Shown: positions 1 to 38,250 of the stretch, piece by piece
Layout: every line of letters starts with the position of its first letter
Position numbering within the stretch: the first letter of the stretch is position 1
DNA from: Deltaproteobacteria bacterium
GTDB taxonomy: Bacteria; UBA10199; JACPAL01
Length of the DNA: 64,000 nucleotides
Direction: 5' to 3'
Assembly: GCA_016180845.1 (NCBI GenBank)
Contig: JACPAK010000002.1
Coordinates: 62,001-126,000, forward strand
Notes under the pieces: generated by a model
Told to the model about the DNA's origin: nothing
Databases searched by the model: none
What the model saw: the letters and a program-made list of their open reading frames with translations, nothing else
Program-made: the position numbers and the translations under genes

Positions 1-247
1 CGCCCAGTTTCAGGGCGCTCATCGGATTTTTGGCGAAGAAAACCTCTTCAATCGCCATCACGTCTGGTTTCAGCTCTCGAATAATCTGTCGTATCCTGGA
101 AAAAATATCCTGCAATCGCTTTGCGAATGGGGAAGAAGGAGAGACCCTGACAAGCCCATTATCAACATGCCGAAACCGCGCCCCATCTTTCTCAACGATT
201 CCATATCCTGTGATAGTTGACCCCGGATCGATTCCCAAGACTCTCAT
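1..247 (-). CDS. ruvC: Crossover junction endodeoxyribonuclease RuvC, partial
   Basis: This is the N-terminal part of RuvC, the Holliday-junction resolvase that acts with RuvAB in recombination. The start is the ATG at 247-245, and the 3' end lies outside the window. The protein begins MRVLGIDPGSTITGYGIVE, with the first catalytic Asp in the GIDPG motif. The second acidic motif, AIEEVFFAKNP, follows near residue 66. It sits three bases upstream of yebC on the same strand as transcribed to the left, and yebC-ruvC is a widely conserved pairing. Identification is firm. Only about 82 residues of the usual 160-170 are visible. Confidence 0.95.
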   Translation of the reverse strand, partial: MRVLGIDPGSTITGYGIVEKDGARFRHVDNGLVRVSPSSPFAKRLQDIFSRIRQIIRELKPDVMAIEEVFFAKNPMSALKLG

Positions 248-4749: not shown

Positions 4750-6228
4750 ATGTCAACAGCAAAAGCGGTTTTGGCGGCAGGGATGGGGATCAGTGTGGTT
4801 CACCTGATCGAGTCGGCCTATGATCTTGGGGCGTCGAAATCTCCCGCCGATAAACCGGCTGTTTCGATTGATGCGGGGTTGGGGGCAACTGCCTCCGTTT
4901 TCTCGATCATTCAGACCTCAGCGATTTTTTACGGGAAATTTCGTGTTGCCCAAACCGTTTCAGTATTTTCTCTTTTTTTCGCGGCGAGTCAGCTCCTGAT
5001 CGGCGGGATCGCCTACTCCGAAAAAGAGCCGGGTCATAACGGAACGGACCTCCTGCTTGCCGGTCTCCAGGTCGCCGTTGCTGTCTCCGGTTTCTCGTAC
5101 GCCCGTTTTTCACTCCCCGCCTTGGTGGCGATGGCCAAAGGAGGTGACGATCAGGCGCTGACGAAGCTCTACATGAGATGGTATGGGAAGAAAGATCAGA
5201 AGGCAGCGGAGGCGCTCTCCCGAATCGCCGTTGCGAACCCCTATCGTTTTGCGGCGAACCATTCGGCTGTCCTTTTTTCTAACACGGTTGATAACGGCTC
5301 GGCCCGGATTGTCCTTAATAAGCTTCTTAATAGTCATCCCGGACAGCATATTATTTCTGCCCCTCTGCTCGGAGTTGCGATTGAAAGCCGTCCAGCCCTC
5401 TTTAATGCCTCGGATATCCCCAACCTTCTGGGCCAACTCAGGAGGTCCGACAGAGGCCCCGAATTTCTCGACAGACTGATCACGAGTCGTCCTGACCTTG
5501 GAAGAGAAGTTTTGAATAAGTCAGGATTGGTTTTTAGGAGGGATGATTGGGAAAAATTTGGAGACTCCCTCCGGAGGATTTGGGTGAGAAACCTTGAAGA
5601 GGAAAACCGAAGAACGCTTCTTGTTTCATGGAAAGATCGACTGTTAAATCAGGCATCTAATCAATGTATAGATCCAGTGCTCCTTGTACCGGTGTATCAT
5701 GTTAATTCACGTTCCGCCCGAGAGATCTGGAAGGTCGTTGACCGTGGGGGTTACGACCGTTTTCTCGATGAGTTTATTCGGACGAAGGATTATTATAGTG
5801 AGAAAGTCGCTGAGACGCCGCTTCTGGAAGATGTGGTGCTCTATTTTCAATCAGTGCCGGGTGGGTTCGGGGGGGTACAAAGGATTGGATTGAAGGTTTG
5901 TGACCGTTCGGATGTCGATATCTCTGTCTTTGACTTCCTTTGGTCTAATCCTGACCAGAAGGGCTTACGCGAGCGTGTCTTGAAACTATTCGCCGATCGG
6001 GCGAGCGAACCGCATATCATGCAGGCTGAGGCGCCTATTATGAGTGTTACGGTCGGTGAAGTGCGGCAGATGTTTGGAACTCAGGTCTTGCGCGGCTGGT
6101 TTGATTCAGGAGACGTTTTGATTCAGCAGAATCTCCCCGCCTTGATGGCTGTCTTAAAAGAACCGGGATATGCCGGAAACCCGGTTTTGAGGGCGATTGC
6201 CAGACTTCATCGTCTTGGAGTTTCGTAA
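4750..6228 (+). CDS. Unrecognised membrane-anchored protein
   Basis: A 492-residue protein I do not recognise. A strong Shine-Dalgarno (AGGAGGGG) precedes the ATG. Three hydrophobic segments lie between about residues 40 and 125 (for example SVFSIIQTSAIFYGKF and LLAGLQVAVAVSGFSYA). The remaining 360 residues look soluble and helical, with short similar stretches such as LGQLRRSDRGPEFLDRLITSRPDL that could be solenoid-like repeats. It is the first gene of a plus-strand run that is divergent from rsmE and followed 15 bases later by another small membrane protein. No catalytic motif is evident. Confidence 0.75.
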   Translation: MSTAKAVLAAGMGISVVHLIESAYDLGASKSPADKPAVSIDAGLGATASVFSIIQTSAIFYGKFRVAQTVSVFSLFFAASQLLIGGIAYSEKEPGHNGTDLLLAGLQVAVAVSGFSYARFSLPALVAMAKGGDDQALTKLYMRWYGKKDQKAAEALSRIAVANPYRFAANHSAVLFSNTVDNGSARIVLNKLLNSHPGQHIISAPLLGVAIESRPALFNASDIPNLLGQLRRSDRGPEFLDRLITSRPDLGREVLNKSGLVFRRDDWEKFGDSLRRIWVRNLEEENRRTLLVSWKDRLLNQASNQCIDPVLLVPVYHVNSRSAREIWKVVDRGGYDRFLDEFIRTKDYYSEKVAETPLLEDVVLYFQSVPGGFGGVQRIGLKVCDRSDVDISVFDFLWSNPDQKGLRERVLKLFADRASEPHIMQAEAPIMSVTVGEVRQMFGTQVLRGWFDSGDVLIQQNLPALMAVLKEPGYAGNPVLRAIARLHRLGVS

Positions 6229-18909: not shown

Positions 18910-19043
18910 TGACCTCCTGTGTCATAGCCCAACCACAACTTGCTGAATTCTAAGCCGATAACCAAGCTGTGAATGTTAATCGATCGACCGCCTTTTCAGT
19001 CTTGGCAACGATCCTTGAACATCTCCATCAGGGGATCTGGACG

Positions 19044-19523
19044 ATGAATACCTCCAAAGGAGCAAGCCCGGTTCGTCCTCTCCTCTCTCATGGTACGCGC
19101 ATTCGCGGGATTCGCCAGCAGGCGATCGCGATGCAACTTCGAACCGCCTATCTGGAATTGATGCATCTGGCAGGGCAGGTTGAGAGGAATCCAGGACTCC
19201 GTTTGGCTGACGGCCCCTTAAAAGGGGTACCTATCTGTCGTCGAAAGGATGTTGTCCGTTTGTGTCACGAATTGGCAGGAAGGGTTGATCGGTTAAAGCC
19301 GGTGGTTCCTCCTCGGGGAAGGAAGCCTCAAGTTGTAACACTGGGGGGTTTACATCGAAACCGGGATTTCAAAGAAGGGGTTGAGGCCCCTTTCCTGTGG
19401 GCCGATGTTTATTTTCGAACCTGGAGCTTGCAGAGGCATGTCAGGCTTGGCAAACCAACAGAAATTTCAGTCGAGAGTACCCAACGGAGAGGACTAGCAA
19501 CCCTTCTGAAGGTTTGTCGATGA
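19044..19523 (+). CDS. Unrecognised protein
   Basis: A 159-residue protein of no family I recognise. The ATG at 19044 has AGGGG about ten bases upstream; a GTG at 18969 in the same frame would add 25 residues. The N-terminal third is helical (IRQQAIAMQLRTAYLELMHLAGQVE), the rest is basic and rich in proline, and there is no membrane helix. It is followed 13 bases later by another orphan gene and may be co-transcribed with it. Confidence 0.55.
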   Translation: MNTSKGASPVRPLLSHGTRIRGIRQQAIAMQLRTAYLELMHLAGQVERNPGLRLADGPLKGVPICRRKDVVRLCHELAGRVDRLKPVVPPRGRKPQVVTLGGLHRNRDFKEGVEAPFLWADVYFRTWSLQRHVRLGKPTEISVESTQRRGLATLLKVCR

Positions 19524-19536
19524 GCCTCTTGAGTCT

Positions 19537-20199
19537 ATGACGACCGCCTCCTATTTAACCCAACCGGTAGACCTCTTTAGGGAGCTTCTCGCTGTTTTTC
19601 AAAGGGTAGATGATGTGATGCTTTATGCAGCGGATGAAGCAGTTATTCCTGACTCGAGCCCTTGGGGAGCGGTCGCCCCGTCAGTTTCGAGAACTTGTGA
19701 GCAAGAAATGGGACGTGTTCAACGCCTGTGGGACTCGCTCGATGCGGGGGAAGGAATGGTCCGGTTCCCTCAAGAAGATTTTCATGTGGGAATCGATCAA
19801 GCGGAATTAGATAGGAGACTTGCAGTGAGGGAGGTGACGAGGGGGAGCGTGGTTCAGCCTATTGATTGGAAAAAAGGGGGTAGAAAAGGTGGCCCTTTGG
19901 AAATCGCTCCACCAATGAGTTCACTGGAGAGGGCAAAGGCGATGCTGGCGACAACTTACCAAAAACTGCAAAGGCTTCAAAAAGAGGCCGATGCCCCGAT
20001 CGGGACAACCATTGGGGCGATGAGAAATCGAAGTAGTCATCGGGCCTTTTGGGGGAATGGACTCAGTGCGCTCCAGGCACAGGTTCGAGAGACCTCTTGG
20101 CGTGCGACATTCGGTCAACTCAGTCTTGTTTTTGGAGTCCTTAGTTCGATAGCGTTGGTAGTGGGTCTTTTCGAAGTTTTGTCTTCTGATCCTGCCTGA
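19537..20199 (+). CDS. Unrecognised tail-anchored protein
   Basis: A 220-residue protein with a helical cytoplasmic body and one C-terminal hydrophobic helix (about 195-215, LSLVFGVLSSIALVVGLFEV), which suggests a tail anchor. A helical segment near residues 128-150 (SLERAKAMLATTYQKLQRLQKEA) could form a coiled coil. The ribosome binding site is weak. It lies between the preceding orphan gene and leuS. Function unknown. Confidence 0.6.
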   Translation: MTTASYLTQPVDLFRELLAVFQRVDDVMLYAADEAVIPDSSPWGAVAPSVSRTCEQEMGRVQRLWDSLDAGEGMVRFPQEDFHVGIDQAELDRRLAVREVTRGSVVQPIDWKKGGRKGGPLEIAPPMSSLERAKAMLATTYQKLQRLQKEADAPIGTTIGAMRNRSSHRAFWGNGLSALQAQVRETSWRATFGQLSLVFGVLSSIALVVGLFEVLSSDPA

Positions 20200-23598: not shown

Positions 23599-23910
23599 TT
23601 ATAACCCTTGAACGAGAGAGGACAGTCGCGCAATATGCCTCGAGGCATGGCGGGCATGCACGACCCCTTTTCCGGCGGCCTTGGAGTAGAGAGACATCGC
23701 CTCTTTTAAAAACTGCTTCGCCTTCTCCTGACTCTTCTGCCGAACCGCATCTCTGACCTTCCGGGCGATTGTTTTGAGTGCGGAACTGACCGATTGATTT
23801 TGGAGCGCCCGCTTCAGATTTTGACGCTGTCTCTTGATCGTGGAACGATGGCGTCCCTTCGGGAGTCGTCTTTTGGCTGCTTGGCCAGCTTTCTTTGGTG
23901 CCTCTGCCAT
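23599..23910 (-). CDS. rpsT: 30S ribosomal protein S20
   Basis: S20 (103 residues) binds 16S rRNA in the small subunit. It is very basic, with the typical KRRLPKGRHRSTIKRQRQN start, helices rich in Lys and Arg, and the KGVVHARHASRHIARL end that matches the S20 signature. It is slightly longer than the usual 85-90 residues because of an N-terminal Ala/Pro/Lys extension. It is a single gene between holA and the divergent paralogue pair. Confidence 0.93.
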   Translation of the reverse strand: MAEAPKKAGQAAKRRLPKGRHRSTIKRQRQNLKRALQNQSVSSALKTIARKVRDAVRQKSQEKAKQFLKEAMSLYSKAAGKGVVHARHASRHIARLSSLVQGL

Positions 23911-23971: not shown

Positions 23972-25285
23972 ATGGAGGTTGTCGACGGACTCTTCAGGTC
24001 GGCAGTACCGGAACTCGATATAGATGTTCTTTTTGCCCGCTTCGCACCTCGAGACGATTCTCCTCAATCTTTCTCCATTGGAAATTGGACCAGTCATGTC
24101 GGTCGCGGATTCGTGAACGAAGGCGTCGAGTCGTTTCGAGGGCTTTTCTCGGTCGGGGGAGCGGCGCTTGCGATCGGGATCGGCATGATTGCACGACAGT
24201 ACGAGGGACTCCTTAAGGGTTTGGTTATTCTGGGAGTTGGAGGGGGGGCGTTCAATATCTTCAGGGGGCTTGTGATGACCTTTAGAGGTGACGAAGCCGG
24301 TCAGGGGAAGGGGGCGGAGCAGATCGGTCGAGGACTTTTTTACTGTCTGCCACTAACCAATGTTCTGAAGCGGAGGGTGACACGATCGCATCTAAGGCGA
24401 GAGGCTTATCGGAATATTCAGTCACGAGGAGAGGTTGTCAAAGATCAGCGGGAATTTATTAGGCTGTCGGAGACGCTTGATCGACGTCTCGATAAAATGT
24501 TGGAGCCTTATGAGGAACCGATTGTCCAAGTCATCAGGGAGGCCCACGGCGAACCGGTTTTTAATAGTGAGTACGAAATTGGGGTTGCTGCCGCCTCTTT
24601 CCCCAATACCATTCATGTGGCCGATCGATATAATCAATTTCTTTCCCCTCGCATGAGGGATTTTTTCAAAGTCGTTCTCTCCCTCGATAAACTTCACGAG
24701 TCGAGACATCTCACTAAATTCCATGACGATTTTCCGATGCTTTGGGATTATTGCATTGAGAATGAGGTGGAAGGGACTGTCGAGATCCTGGAGGTCATCA
24801 AAAACTGTTTTCGATTAAGGGCTCGGCATGAGTCGCGGCTTCGAGATGTCTTTACAGCTGTTTGGAAAAAGGATCGGCAACTGATTCGAGAGGCGGTCAA
24901 GTATCGCGTCTATGAGTGGACGAGGCGTGATGAGATCCCGTCATTTCAGGAAGAATATTGGGCGGTGCGGGAGACGTTAGGGGGGATTGATTGGGAACGG
25001 ACTTTTACACGTCTTTATCAAAGATTTGAAAAGAGGGAGATGCGGAATTGGTGGGAACGTTTCAAGGAATGGTTTCAGTTGAGAGAAATGCGGCAAACAG
25101 TCCGATCGAACCTCGTGATTCCCTTTGGCCTGACAGAATCCCAATATGTTTATTATCGGACGAGGGGCTACGATCTTTTTAAATACTTCGGTGAATCAGA
25201 TCACCTCTTTTATCGAAGCGCCTATCTCTTCTTCTACGCCCATGATGCCGGGATCCGGCTTGTTCGAATGCGGGGTGAAAATTGA
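23972..25285 (+). CDS. Unrecognised membrane protein with HExRH motif, paralogue 1
   Basis: A 437-residue protein of no family I recognise. Two hydrophobic helices lie near residues 60-75 and 82-103. Then comes a charged, probably coiled segment (about 130-185), a conserved block VAAASFPNTIHVADRY (about 205-220), and HESRH at 242-246, which fits the zinc-protease pattern HExxH. Further on, YWAVRETLGGIDWERT (near 330) is shared with the next gene. The two overlap by one base (TGATG) and are clearly tandem duplicates. A protease role is a guess; the Arg inside the motif is unusual. Confidence 0.75.
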   Translation: MEVVDGLFRSAVPELDIDVLFARFAPRDDSPQSFSIGNWTSHVGRGFVNEGVESFRGLFSVGGAALAIGIGMIARQYEGLLKGLVILGVGGGAFNIFRGLVMTFRGDEAGQGKGAEQIGRGLFYCLPLTNVLKRRVTRSHLRREAYRNIQSRGEVVKDQREFIRLSETLDRRLDKMLEPYEEPIVQVIREAHGEPVFNSEYEIGVAAASFPNTIHVADRYNQFLSPRMRDFFKVVLSLDKLHESRHLTKFHDDFPMLWDYCIENEVEGTVEILEVIKNCFRLRARHESRLRDVFTAVWKKDRQLIREAVKYRVYEWTRRDEIPSFQEEYWAVRETLGGIDWERTFTRLYQRFEKREMRNWWERFKEWFQLREMRQTVRSNLVIPFGLTESQYVYYRTRGYDLFKYFGESDHLFYRSAYLFFYAHDAGIRLVRMRGEN

Positions 25286-26622
25286 TGATTTCATCTGGCC
25301 TATCTTCGATTGCTCAAACAATTTTAGCAGGGGGCAGAACTGAACCCGGAGTAGATCCGGTAGCCGATGTTGCCCCTTTACCTCATCCAGCATCTTCATT
25401 TTCTTATATTAGCTGGGGGAAGAATGTTGGGTTGGGATTTGTGGAGGAGGGGATTTCTTCTTTCAAGGCGCTCTTTTCTCTTAATGGGCTTATCTTTGGT
25501 ACGGCAACAGCGATAGCTGGCGCTATCCCCAGTCGACTTCCTTGGGCGGGATGGATTTTCGTCATTATGACAAAAATTGGTTTGGCTTGGGGAGGATTGA
25601 ATCTACTTACGGGTCTCTACTTTTCGATCCAAGAGGGTCAAGAAGAGGCAGGGAAGAGAATTGGCAGTGGATTCTTCTATCTGATTCCATTCGGTGGTTT
25701 TTTACTGAGAACCGTCAGAGCACGACAAGTACGAATGCTGAAGCAGGCGGCCAAAAAACAAACAGAAGAAGGAGCCATTTTAACAGAAGTGGAAGACTTG
25801 AGGAAATCTGTTGAGAAACTTAAGAGGCAATTGGATCGGGATCTGAAAGGATTGCCGGGTGATGTTGCCAGTAAAATAAGGCACTCCGTAGAGAACCCCG
25901 AGCCCACAAATTTTGGCAATTTGCGTGTCGTTGCAGCGGCTTCGTTTCCGGATCGCATATTGATTGCTTCACATTACGTAGAGGAAGTACCTCCGCTCTT
26001 GGGGGAACTGTTTAATGTCTATACCTGGGCTCTTCGGATTCATGAGGCGAGGCACTTACGGCAATATTACGAGTCGGCTCCAAGGCTTTGGTGGGCGTGT
26101 GTGAATCGGGGGGGGATTGATCATCGTCCAACCCCTCGAGAAACCTACAAGCTCTTTGGCGGCAAAGATCTCAAACTTCTTTGGGAATCGATCAAAATTT
26201 GGTTAGTCAAGCCGAAACAAAAATGGGAGAGAGAAGGTCAACTTGCGAATTACCAGGCAGTTCGTGAATCCTTGGCTGGAATTAATTGGCAAAAAACTTG
26301 TGCAGGAGTCATTGAGAAGAGTGGTTCTGAATGGGAATTTAAAGAAGCAGGCGCGCTAGCCGATGAAATTTTAGAATGTCTTGCCTATCCCTTCCGAATG
26401 TCTGCTCCTGAGTTTTTTTCATGTCGGATTGTACCCTATATTGATGATTATCCTCGTATGAGTTTCTTTAATGATCGGGATCGTTTTGTTTCTGAAGTCT
26501 TTTTCTTCGGTGGTCTTTATTCATACCTTGTTGGTAATGATGTTTTCCGAACATCGGTCCGCACGGCAAAAAGAGTATCCGACAAATCAATTGATATCGA
26601 CATCGAGGTTCATTTTCATTAA
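25285..26622 (+). CDS. Unrecognised membrane protein with HExRH motif, paralogue 2
   Basis: A 445-residue paralogue of the preceding gene with the same layout: two hydrophobic helices (about 63-80 and 88-112), a coiled segment (about 150-190), VVAAASFPDRILIASHY (about 215-231), HEARH at 253-257, and YQAVRESLAGINWQKT near 331. The start is the ATG at 25285, which overlaps the previous stop. Local base composition is somewhat more AT-rich than its partner. The shared residues point to a common active or binding site. Function unknown. Confidence 0.75.
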   Translation: MISSGLSSIAQTILAGGRTEPGVDPVADVAPLPHPASSFSYISWGKNVGLGFVEEGISSFKALFSLNGLIFGTATAIAGAIPSRLPWAGWIFVIMTKIGLAWGGLNLLTGLYFSIQEGQEEAGKRIGSGFFYLIPFGGFLLRTVRARQVRMLKQAAKKQTEEGAILTEVEDLRKSVEKLKRQLDRDLKGLPGDVASKIRHSVENPEPTNFGNLRVVAAASFPDRILIASHYVEEVPPLLGELFNVYTWALRIHEARHLRQYYESAPRLWWACVNRGGIDHRPTPRETYKLFGGKDLKLLWESIKIWLVKPKQKWEREGQLANYQAVRESLAGINWQKTCAGVIEKSGSEWEFKEAGALADEILECLAYPFRMSAPEFFSCRIVPYIDDYPRMSFFNDRDRFVSEVFFFGGLYSYLVGNDVFRTSVRTAKRVSDKSIDIDIEVHFH

Positions 26623-26662: not shown

Positions 26663-26685
26663 CCCCCTCTTAAGATAAGAGGGGG
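26663..26685. promoter_or_regulatory. Hairpin over the murJ ribosome binding site
   Basis: CCCCCTCTTA (26663-26672) pairs exactly with TAAGAGGGGG (26676-26685) around a three-base loop. The purine-rich right arm is the only Shine-Dalgarno-like sequence before the murJ ATG at 26690, so folding would hide it. It may alternatively be a mobile palindromic repeat. Confidence 0.65.
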
Positions 26686-26689
26686 CTCA

Positions 26690-28240
26690 ATGAGCCATTC
26701 TCAAATCACCAAGCGTGTTGGGGTCGTCAGTTTCTTTACGATCTTGAGCCGGATTACCGGACTTTTTCGCGACATGGCGATCGCGTATGGTTTTGGGACG
26801 AAAATGGTCGCCGATGCCTTTTTCGTTGCGTTTCGGCTGCCGAATCTGCTTCGCCGCCTTTTTGCCGAAGGGGCGTTGACTGTTGCATTTGTCCCGATCT
26901 TTTCCGAGTCGCTCCGGCGTTCTCCCGATGAGGCGAGGCAAGTTTCGAATGCGACCTGGAGTCTGATGACGGCGATCCTCTGTGTCGTTTCCGGACTTGG
27001 GATTCTGCTCTCGCCGCTGCTTGTTCGATTGACTGCCTGGGGGTTTACGGCCGATCCGGAAAAATTTCAGCTCACCATCTTTCTGACGCGCGTGATGTTT
27101 CCGTATATCCTGCTCGTTTCGCTCGCGGCGCTGGCGATGGGGGTCTTAAATTCGCTCAAGCATTTCGCCGTCCCCGCCTCTTCTTCGATCTTCATGAATC
27201 TGGGTGTGATTGTTGGGGCCCTAGGGATCGTTCATCTTTTTGATCCACCGGTTACGGGACTTGCTGTTGGGGTCCTCCTGGGAGGGGTTTTACAACTTGT
27301 CGTGCATTTTCCGGTGATGAGACGTTTCGGTTTTTTGCCACGCCTCTCCTGGAACCCCCACCACCCCGGTGTCATGAAGATTGTCCGGATGATGGGACCT
27401 GCATCTTTCGGGGCGGCAGTCTATCAATTCAATGTTATTATCACAACGCTGTTGGCTTCGTTTCTGCCTGAGGGGAGCGTTTCGTATCTCTGGTATGCCG
27501 ATCGGATCATGGAATTTCCATTGGGGATCTGGGGGGTCGCCCTCGCAACAGTCCTTCTTCCATCGCTCTCCGATCATGCGGCCGATCGCGATGATCGTGC
27601 ACTCAAGGATACCTTTCAGTATGGACTTCGGATGGTTTTTTTTCTGACCCTTCCTGCAGCGGGTGGATTGCTCGTTCTGGGGAGGCCGATTGTCCAACTT
27701 CTGTTTGAACATGGGACATTTACCGCGACCTCGACGCTTCATACGACGCAGGCGCTCACCTTCTTTGCGATCGGACTCCCGTTTATTTCAGCCGTTCGCG
27801 TGACGACGAATGCCTTCTATTCCCTGCAGGACGCCAGGACGCCGGTCAGGATTGCGATAGCCTCCATGGCGATTAACCTCATTCTCTCACTTATCTTAAT
27901 GGGGCCGCTACGCCACAATGGCCTCGCGCTGGCGATCAGCCTTTCGTCAGTTTTTAATTTTTCACTTCAGCTCTGGTATTTCCGAAAAAAGGTGGGACCA
28001 CTTGGGTTACGAAAGATAATCAGAGGCCTTCTTAAAACGAGTGCTTCGACCGCCATCATGATGCTGATCCTTTTTATTCTTTATTTAGAAATTGTTCCGT
28101 TTGTTCTCGATCTTTCCGCAATGTTTCTCGTCTTTGGCCTCATTGTTTTAGGGGTTGTCTTGTTTTTTGGTATTGAGTGGTTGTTAGGGGGGGAGGAGAT
28201 ACGGGAGATTTTGCAGGTGGTCAGGCGCCGAAGGGGGTAG
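26690..28240 (+). CDS. murJ: Lipid II flippase MurJ
   Basis: MurJ (516 residues, MOP superfamily) moves the peptidoglycan precursor lipid II across the inner membrane. It has about 14 hydrophobic helices, the N-terminal TILSRITGLFRDMAIAYGFG and FRLPNLLRRLFAEGALTVAFVP motifs typical of MurJ, and LFEHGTFTATST before the later helices. The ATG at 26690 lies just after a strong hairpin. The 3' end overlaps the convergent pseudouridine synthase gene by 20 bases. Confidence 0.95.
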   Translation: MSHSQITKRVGVVSFFTILSRITGLFRDMAIAYGFGTKMVADAFFVAFRLPNLLRRLFAEGALTVAFVPIFSESLRRSPDEARQVSNATWSLMTAILCVVSGLGILLSPLLVRLTAWGFTADPEKFQLTIFLTRVMFPYILLVSLAALAMGVLNSLKHFAVPASSSIFMNLGVIVGALGIVHLFDPPVTGLAVGVLLGGVLQLVVHFPVMRRFGFLPRLSWNPHHPGVMKIVRMMGPASFGAAVYQFNVIITTLLASFLPEGSVSYLWYADRIMEFPLGIWGVALATVLLPSLSDHAADRDDRALKDTFQYGLRMVFFLTLPAAGGLLVLGRPIVQLLFEHGTFTATSTLHTTQALTFFAIGLPFISAVRVTTNAFYSLQDARTPVRIAIASMAINLILSLILMGPLRHNGLALAISLSSVFNFSLQLWYFRKKVGPLGLRKIIRGLLKTSASTAIMMLILFILYLEIVPFVLDLSAMFLVFGLIVLGVVLFFGIEWLLGGEEIREILQVVRRRRG

Positions 28241-35099: not shown

Positions 35100-35639
35100 A
35101 TGGCAAGCGCTTCAGATGTAGCCCGATCGATTGGAAGTCACTCAGGATTTGAGCAGGCTGTTGCTTATCTCAGAAAAGAGGGGGTTTGGGACCCCGTGCT
35201 GGCGCGTGATCTCCGTCGCGTGGGGCAAAACTTGGAAACAGTCGAAAGAGATCTTTTCATTGCCTGCCGAGCAGAGGGAATGGTTCTGAGCCGAAGTGGT
35301 GGAGTGGTCCTTATGAATCCAGTTAGAGCTACCAGCCGCTTGGGAGCTTCTGGCATTCAAGCAATTACATTGGCGCATCAGGGGATGCAATATCTTCGGC
35401 AAATGCTTTTTGACCAGGTTGGCATAGTAGTTGCGGATTATGAGGCTACCAAGGGAAGGAATCTTGATCTTGCAAGAAGAGTGACGGCTAAATTGGGACA
35501 GGCAATCTTAAGGGCTGCTGATGCAGCGTACCTCTCAGTCGGATTAATGATTAAAGAAGGCATCCCTCAAATGACACTACCTTGTCTCGTATTGGGTGCT
35601 GTCACCTACTGTTTCGCCACCTCCATCGCCACCGACTGA
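35100..35639 (+). CDS. Unrecognised tail-anchored protein
   Basis: A 179-residue protein with a strong ribosome binding site (GGGAGGAGTCACCT). It is mainly helical, with a basic N-terminal half and one hydrophobic helix at the very C-terminus (MTLPCLVLGAVTYCFAT), so it may be tail-anchored. It resembles the orphan at 19537-20199 in layout but not obviously in sequence. A weak hairpin (CTTCTC/GAGAAG near 35668-35689) followed by T-rich sequence may end its transcript. Confidence 0.6.
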   Translation: MASASDVARSIGSHSGFEQAVAYLRKEGVWDPVLARDLRRVGQNLETVERDLFIACRAEGMVLSRSGGVVLMNPVRATSRLGASGIQAITLAHQGMQYLRQMLFDQVGIVVADYEATKGRNLDLARRVTAKLGQAILRAADAAYLSVGLMIKEGIPQMTLPCLVLGAVTYCFATSIATD

Positions 35640-36573: not shown

Positions 36574-38175
36574 TTATTCCAACCGAAGGATCGAGCCGGT
36601 TAGGGTGGGGCTGCCGGTACTCTGAATCCACAGATCGGTTGGGGCGTCTTGAATCAGAAAAAACTGTGCTGCCGTCGCGTTCAGATTCGATGTCAACGGA
36701 TAACTCTCCACTTCGACAATAGACGGTCCATTGAGAATCGTACCGCGGCCATCATTGGCGGTACAACGGAGACACAAGCCTGTTGGATTACCACTGGTGG
36801 CGTCGGTACCACGCGGTTCATAGTTAAATCTGGGATCGGTGGTCATGTTTGTGTCTGTGAGCGCCAGTGCAATTGACCAGTTATTCAGAAACTCTGGAAA
36901 TTCGTCAAAGCTTGAGTCGCCACTTGCGAAAGAAGAGACGATGTTTGAAACACCGGTCGCTTTCCCTTCCAGAAGATTTTGGAGAAATTGCTGACCGTTA
37001 CCGCTTTGTTCATAGAGGTAACGCAGGAAGGCATAACCGGCCCCGCGTTCAGCGAGAGTTGGTGAAGCAGCTGAGATGAGTGGAGTGGCGTTGGGACGAC
37101 TGAGGAAAAGTTTGACACGGGAGTAATTTTCGAGGCCGAAACCATTCAGATCTTCTGCCAGATGGGAAAGCGCTTCGTTCAACCATGGCTCCTCCGTTTT
37201 TCCATTTCCCAAGAAGACGTGGCGATTGAAGCTGATCATATGTTGGTATTCATGGGCCAGGACACCGGGAAGGATATTGGTCAAGGCAAAATCCGAGGAG
37301 ATCGGGATACCGCATCGTCCATTGGGATCGGGAAGCAGGGTATAGAAGATCTCCTGTTCGTTTGATGCCGGATTGACAGAGGAAGAGGCGTAAAGATCAC
37401 CGGGGAAGAAAAAGCCTGTGACGATGCCCGAAGAGGCCATTCGATTTGTGACACAAGTCATGACAATAGAGATATGGCTGTCTCCGTTGATATCCGATTC
37501 GTTGCCGAAGAGGGATCTGTCGGTCGGGAGGATAGTATTCTGGAATTTATTGGCCAGGTCCTGGATCTCTTCGTCGCTGATATGGTCTGCAGAGTCATCC
37601 TCAACGAAGAAGAGGAGATCGTCTGTGACGACCCGAAGTGTTGCCTCTACCTGTTCATATCGGGAAAGCGAGGTCATCGATGACAGCACCTTGAACGTTT
37701 GTTTGTCACCCACCGCCATCGTTTTTGTCAGCGCAGAAAAGCTGGAACGCGATCCCAATTGCTGAAATTCCGGTGATTGGGCCATCTCCGCACCACTTTC
37801 ATTCAGAAATTGGTGAAAAAGGGCGCTATCAGGATCTTCGAGCCCCTTCTCGACCTCGAGATGGGGGAGCTGGAGCAGGGGAGCCGATTCATCGGCCAAT
37901 TGGAGCCCATAGTTTCCCGGAAGGGTATTCGCTGCATTCAGGATCAGGAGGTAGGAGGTGGTCCGATCGGCTATCTGGATTGAGGCGCGTCCGCTCGAAA
38001 AGGAGACCGGTGTGATCTCTTCGACAGAGAGATTTGTGAAGTCGACCTCTGAGGTTGTCGCCGCTTCGGTATTTGCAGAATAACCGTCTGTTGGATTTTC
38101 GCTCCCCTTCATGCAGGCTGTCAGAGAGATAATCATCATTATCAGCAGGAACATGCTGAACGGTCGGCTCTTCAT
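36574..38175 (-). CDS. Secreted lipoprotein zinc metallopeptidase
   Basis: A 533-residue exported protein. The ATG at 38175 follows a GAGGGG site and gives a lipoprotein signal, MKSRPFSMFLLIMMIISLTAC. The zinc site is VLAHEYQHMISFNRH with a Glu in EEPWLNEALSHLAEDL, like peptidases of the M30 (hyicolysin) type. A beta-rich domain lies upstream and another downstream of the catalytic part. It is likely an outer-membrane-anchored protease. It sits behind an extremely AT-rich upstream region. Confidence 0.85.
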   Translation of the reverse strand: MKSRPFSMFLLIMMIISLTACMKGSENPTDGYSANTEAATTSEVDFTNLSVEEITPVSFSSGRASIQIADRTTSYLLILNAANTLPGNYGLQLADESAPLLQLPHLEVEKGLEDPDSALFHQFLNESGAEMAQSPEFQQLGSRSSFSALTKTMAVGDKQTFKVLSSMTSLSRYEQVEATLRVVTDDLLFFVEDDSADHISDEEIQDLANKFQNTILPTDRSLFGNESDINGDSHISIVMTCVTNRMASSGIVTGFFFPGDLYASSSVNPASNEQEIFYTLLPDPNGRCGIPISSDFALTNILPGVLAHEYQHMISFNRHVFLGNGKTEEPWLNEALSHLAEDLNGFGLENYSRVKLFLSRPNATPLISAASPTLAERGAGYAFLRYLYEQSGNGQQFLQNLLEGKATGVSNIVSSFASGDSSFDEFPEFLNNWSIALALTDTNMTTDPRFNYEPRGTDATSGNPTGLCLRCTANDGRGTILNGPSIVEVESYPLTSNLNATAAQFFLIQDAPTDLWIQSTGSPTLTGSILRLE

Positions 38176-38250
38176 TTTCCCCTCTTTCATTTGGGGAAAG
38201 CCAGATTGGACAACCCCACCCAACGATGATGCAGTGCAATGAATGTGCCA

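Follow-up and report, generated by a model that had tools for sequence, protein, structure and literature searches.

A tandem pair of orphan proteins with predicted membrane helices and a shared HExRH motif between rpsT and murJ

In the stretch of 64,000 nucleotides analysed here (the window), two genes, p1 and p2, are located head to tail on the plus strand between rpsT and murJ and are genuine tandem paralogues. Both encode orphan proteins that combine two N-terminal hydrophobic segments with a conserved HE(S/A)RH motif, and within the sets searched their family appears so far to be confined to one bacterial genome. As the leading mechanism for the pair we tentatively put forward a membrane-tethered, zincin-like enzyme of a non-canonical kind. 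If its zinc site were real, p1 and p2 would represent a family of membrane proteases that current classifications do not cover, from a phylum with few sampled genomes; otherwise they would be a clear case of a conserved HExxH in orphan proteins suggesting a protease with nothing further to back it. Either way, the rpsT-murJ junction is a place where the lineage holds accessory genes.

Gene pair and protein architecture

The two proteins (Table 1) align over most of their length with 27% identity (BLASTP, 393 alignment columns, 132 bits, E = 1e-38), and the genes are identical at 46, 58 and 33% of first, second and third codon positions, respectively. This pattern identifies both as real protein-coding genes whose protein sequence is constrained, and the near-saturation of third positions indicates that the duplication is old. 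Translation of p2 may start from TTG at 25282 or from ATG at 25285. The stop codon of p1 (TGA, 25283-25285) and this ATG (25285-25287) have one base in common (TGATG), and GGGGTG is found immediately 5' of the ATG. The pair therefore probably forms one operon with coupled translation.

From the N-terminus to the C-terminus, both proteins consist of a short N-terminus, a W...VG.GFV.EG..SF..LFS block, two hydrophobic segments with Kyte-Doolittle means of 1.5-1.7 and a basic stretch that leads into the C-terminal domain. VAAASFP..I.[IV]A..Y starts 37 residues ahead of HE(S/A)RHL in either protein, with no gap between the two elements, and the glutamate of AVRE(S/T)L.GI.W is situated 71 (p2) or 88 (p1) residues past the second histidine of HExRH. 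The two best-conserved stretches of 11 residues contain VAAASFP and AVRE...W and reach 73% identity as compared with 30% overall. The original prediction had described adjacent tandem paralogues, each with two membrane helices, that have VAAASFP, HE(S/A)RH and AVRE(T/S)L-GI-W in common, and this description is borne out by the open reading frames, the hydropathy profiles and the alignment.

Table 1. Position of p1, p2, their sequence elements and the flanking genes (nucleotide positions refer to the window, residues to the respective protein)
Feature	Position	Strand	Description	Basis
rpsT	23599-23910	-	Upstream neighbour of p1	
p1	23972..25285	+	437-aa orphan protein	ORF, paralogy to p2, hydropathy, codon positions
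p1 hydrophobic helices	residues 55-73, 84-102		Glycine-rich	Hydropathy
p1 Arg-rich stretch	residues 133-164			
p1 VAAASFP...HESRHL block	24584..24712	+	Putative strand and HExxH helix	Alignment, sequence
p1 HESRH	residues 242-246			
p1 AVRETLGGIDW block	24962..24994	+	E334, conserved acidic residue, candidate third ligand	Alignment
p2	25282..26622	+	446-aa orphan paralogue of p1	ORF, overlap sequence, alignment, hydropathy
p2 hydrophobic helices	residues 64-82, 92-110		Glycine-rich	Hydropathy
p2 basic stretch	residues 143-159			
p2 VAAASFP...HEARHL block	25930..26058	+		Alignment, sequence
p2 VAAASFP	residues 217-223			
p2 HEARH	residues 254-258			
p2 AVRESLAGINW block	26257..26289 (residues 326-336)	+	E329, conserved acidic residue, candidate third ligand	Alignment
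murJ	26690-28240		Downstream neighbour of p2	

Searches for known families and relatives

Comparison of p1 and p2, fragments included, with Pfam, NCBIfam, PHROGs and PADLOC at E values up to 10 returned sub-threshold noise and no credible match. Among these results there was no peptidase profile of Pfam or NCBIfam for either the full proteins or the fragments, and a search of PDB sequences yielded two matches to ribosomal proteins at E = 1.5 that we ascribe to chance. In these collections, the proteins indeed belong to no known family, as had been supposed. AlphaFold2, run with the two sequences as input, gave unusable models, with pLDDT values of 36 (full length) and 38 (C-terminal domain); at this low confidence their secondary structure is all helical and the strand expected for a zincin is absent.

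No third member of the family came to light among the other 45 genomes from the phylum, several hundred wider genomes, or the phage, plasmid and viral collections. When single proteins were searched against their own genome and 98 relatives, only p1, p2 and chance matches were obtained, and a two-row profile retrieved nothing real from 46 phylum members, 385 more widely spread relatives and a set of 400 genomes chosen around another centre; part of the genomes were covered repeatedly. Profiles built separately for the N-terminal and C-terminal parts gave weak matches only and no relative. Weak profile matches that were opened turned out to be unrelated frames, frames interrupted by stops, or genes for a leucyl-tRNA synthetase, a histidine kinase and a carbamoyltransferase, and the only match in the phage and plasmid search, a phage baseplate protein at E = 0.09, was marginal and was treated as chance. 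Scanning DNA for F-P...HExRH recovered p1, p2 and two further raw matches in the genome of the window and scattered, background-like matches elsewhere, and motif scans of genome contigs and viral contigs revealed no relative of the pair. Sensitivity was restricted by the use of a profile of only two rows, and an empty result from a set that lacks a positive control is no proof of absence.

The HExRH motif and the possible function of the pair

HExxH occurs in 1.0% of shuffled p2 sequences, and over the whole alignment p1 keeps 3 of the 7 histidines and 9 of the 29 glutamates of p2. The joint chance that p2 has the motif and that p1 retains it is then roughly 0.01 x 0.43 x 0.31 x 0.43, i.e., about 0.0006, a figure that makes no correction for the number of other motifs that could have caught a reader's eye. 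Retention of HExxH in both copies by chance is thus unlikely, and the motif deserves serious attention, yet the figure is no proof of a metal site, and conservation between two sequences from one genome is weak evidence.

Conservation of HExxH, the general characteristic of zincins, applies to the two members known (HESRH in p1, HEARH in p2). The two x positions of this motif are variable and the arginine alone is no objection to a zincin. Gluzincins carry a second motif, ExxxD, 20-60 residues after the second histidine (PMC3356374). A motif check detected no ExxxD downstream of HExxH in p1 or p2, nor does the metzincin motif HExxHxxGxxH/D occur, the respective sequences being HESRHLTKFHD and HEARHLRQYYE. 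The proteins can therefore be classed neither as gluzincins nor as metzincins, and the third ligand of any zinc site in them would have to be non-canonical. Conserved acidic candidates in p2 are D296, E302 and E329, located 38, 44 and 71 residues beyond the second histidine, and H281 is a further candidate for which the alignment is less secure.

According to the zincin-like mechanism, each protein of this tandem-duplicated, lineage-restricted and probably translationally coupled pair would be anchored in the inner membrane by its N-terminal glycine-rich hydrophobic hairpin. The strongly basic, Arg/Lys-rich stretch that follows would, by the positive-inside rule, put the C-terminal domain in the cytoplasm, where the two histidines of HE(S/A)RH would hold a metal, the glutamate would activate water and one of the conserved acidic residues further downstream (in p2, E302 or E329) would complete the metal site of a hydrolase that may cut a membrane or cytosolic protein. 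What counts for this mechanism is that HExRH and its flanking blocks are kept despite an identity of only 27%, and that the conserved S-F-P-x-x-I-x-[IV]-A-x-x-Y, which starts about 33 residues ahead of HE, may correspond in position to the edge strand of many zincins. What counts against it is the lack of an ExxxD or metzincin motif and of a family match, together with the all-helical, low-confidence models. Of the original prediction, which left the choice between a candidate membrane zincin and a decoy, paralogy, helices, the conserved HExRH and the lack of a known family are upheld; the zinc site found no support, and ExxxD and HExxHxxGxxH, the signatures of two classical zincin groups, are absent. 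A protease is possible; we consider it rather doubtful that p1 and p2 form a membrane-anchored zincin family devoid of ExxxD and metzincin motifs, with the glutamate of AVRE(S/T)L or one in the preceding helix as third ligand and with two coupled, strongly diverged copies.

Almost as likely as the zincin-like mechanism is that p1 and p2 are non-catalytic orphan membrane proteins in which HExRH is part of a structural or partner-binding helix and the likeness to zincins is coincidental. This agrees with the absence of a second gluzincin or metzincin motif and of any match to a protease profile, with the fact that there are only two sequences, with the low information content of HExxH (1% per shuffled protein) and with the all-helical, albeit unreliable, AlphaFold2 models, but it does not readily account for the retention of all three HExRH motif residues at 27% identity, given that only 3/7 histidines and 9/29 glutamates are kept overall. 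A metal-dependent enzyme other than a peptidase, e.g., a helical metal hydrolase or a protein with a carboxylate-bridged metal site, in which HExRH would act together with further glutamates or histidines of the C-terminal domain, is improbable: E302, E329, E352, E355 and H281 are conserved downstream and the low-confidence prediction is mostly helical, but there is no family match, and ExxH occurs otherwise only once, unaligned, near the C-terminus of p1.

For the zincin-like mechanism, known membrane proteins offer models. BlaR1 and MecR1 are zincins tied to the membrane whose HExxH domain is cytosolic or faces the membrane; in BlaR1, ExxxD is found 37 residues past HExxH, and MecR1 has more membrane helices (PMC3356374, PMC6925264). 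p1 and p2 resemble these M56 proteins in their membrane-tied HExxH domain, which is likewise predicted to face the cytoplasm, but lack a downstream ExxxD and a Pfam match, so that BlaR1 and MecR1 would exemplify how the pair might work and not the family to which it belongs. Membrane gluzincins of the M48 type (HtpX/Ste24) also combine hydrophobic membrane segments with an HExxH domain; unlike these, p1 and p2 have neither a Pfam match nor ExxxD. A loose likeness presumably exists to the HExxH domain of eCIS_core (DUF4157, PF13699), in which a short strand containing A-F is followed by HE..H..Q. We take this as a lead only: the profile matched neither p1 nor p2 in Pfam scans, and a search of 46 phylum genomes for PF13699 came up empty, as did the control genomes.

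A candidate for a more conventional gluzincin than p1 or p2 is encoded elsewhere in the window (36574-38223, minus strand). This predicted lipoprotein, with LTAC as its lipobox, carries HEYQHM followed downstream by WLNEALSHLAED. It has HExxH in common with p1 and p2 and differs from them by HEYQHM plus NEALSHLAED and by a weak, below-threshold match to Peptidase_M30; no similarity to the p1 and p2 profiles was seen.

The rpsT-murJ junction

The neighbouring genes, named from their sequence and from matches in relatives, are directly adjacent to each other in several relatives (e.g., at loci L012, L013, L014 and L029). In two others (loci L010 and L011), different accessory genes unrelated to p1 and p2 occupy the gap. 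As named by eye, the junction contains two short genes resembling a toxin-antitoxin pair in genome G004, and three genes, one of them nucleotidyltransferase-like, in G003. The closest relative, G001, gave no match for holA or murJ and therefore cannot show an empty site. GC3 is 0.39 for p2 and 0.51 for p1 as compared with about 0.6 in the flanking housekeeping genes. This low GC3, less pronounced in p1, and the variability of the junction suggest that the site tolerates insertions and that p1 and p2 are probably acquired accessory cargo.

Cargo of this kind could also be a membrane-acting toxin or defence system, e.g., a membrane effector with a paralogous partner, whose active part would be the glycine-rich hairpin; the patchy occurrence, the genes found at the junction in G003 and G004 and the GC3 of p2 fit such a function, but we deem it unlikely, as PADLOC gave no match, phage, plasmid and viral collections contain no relative, and two full-length paralogues are unlike a toxin with a small antidote.

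Other elements of the window were recorded alongside. A perfect 10-bp hairpin (CCCCCTCTTA-AGA-TAAGAGGGGG, 26663-26685) ends 4 bases ahead of the murJ start codon; it is present in one copy in the window, and the surrounding stretch folds at z -2.15. Between trpA and leuS, two adjacent orphan ORFs without Pfam match (18969-19523 and 19537-20199, plus strand) have GC3 values of 0.49 and 0.47, below those of their neighbours, and the second encodes a C-terminal hydrophobic segment. A 179-aa ORF (35100-35639, plus strand) has Pfam matches no better than noise. In a protein of 492 aa without Pfam match (4750-6228, plus strand), a soluble domain comes after hydrophobic segments at the N-terminus. 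This layout loosely resembles that of p1 and p2, to which the protein has no detectable similarity.
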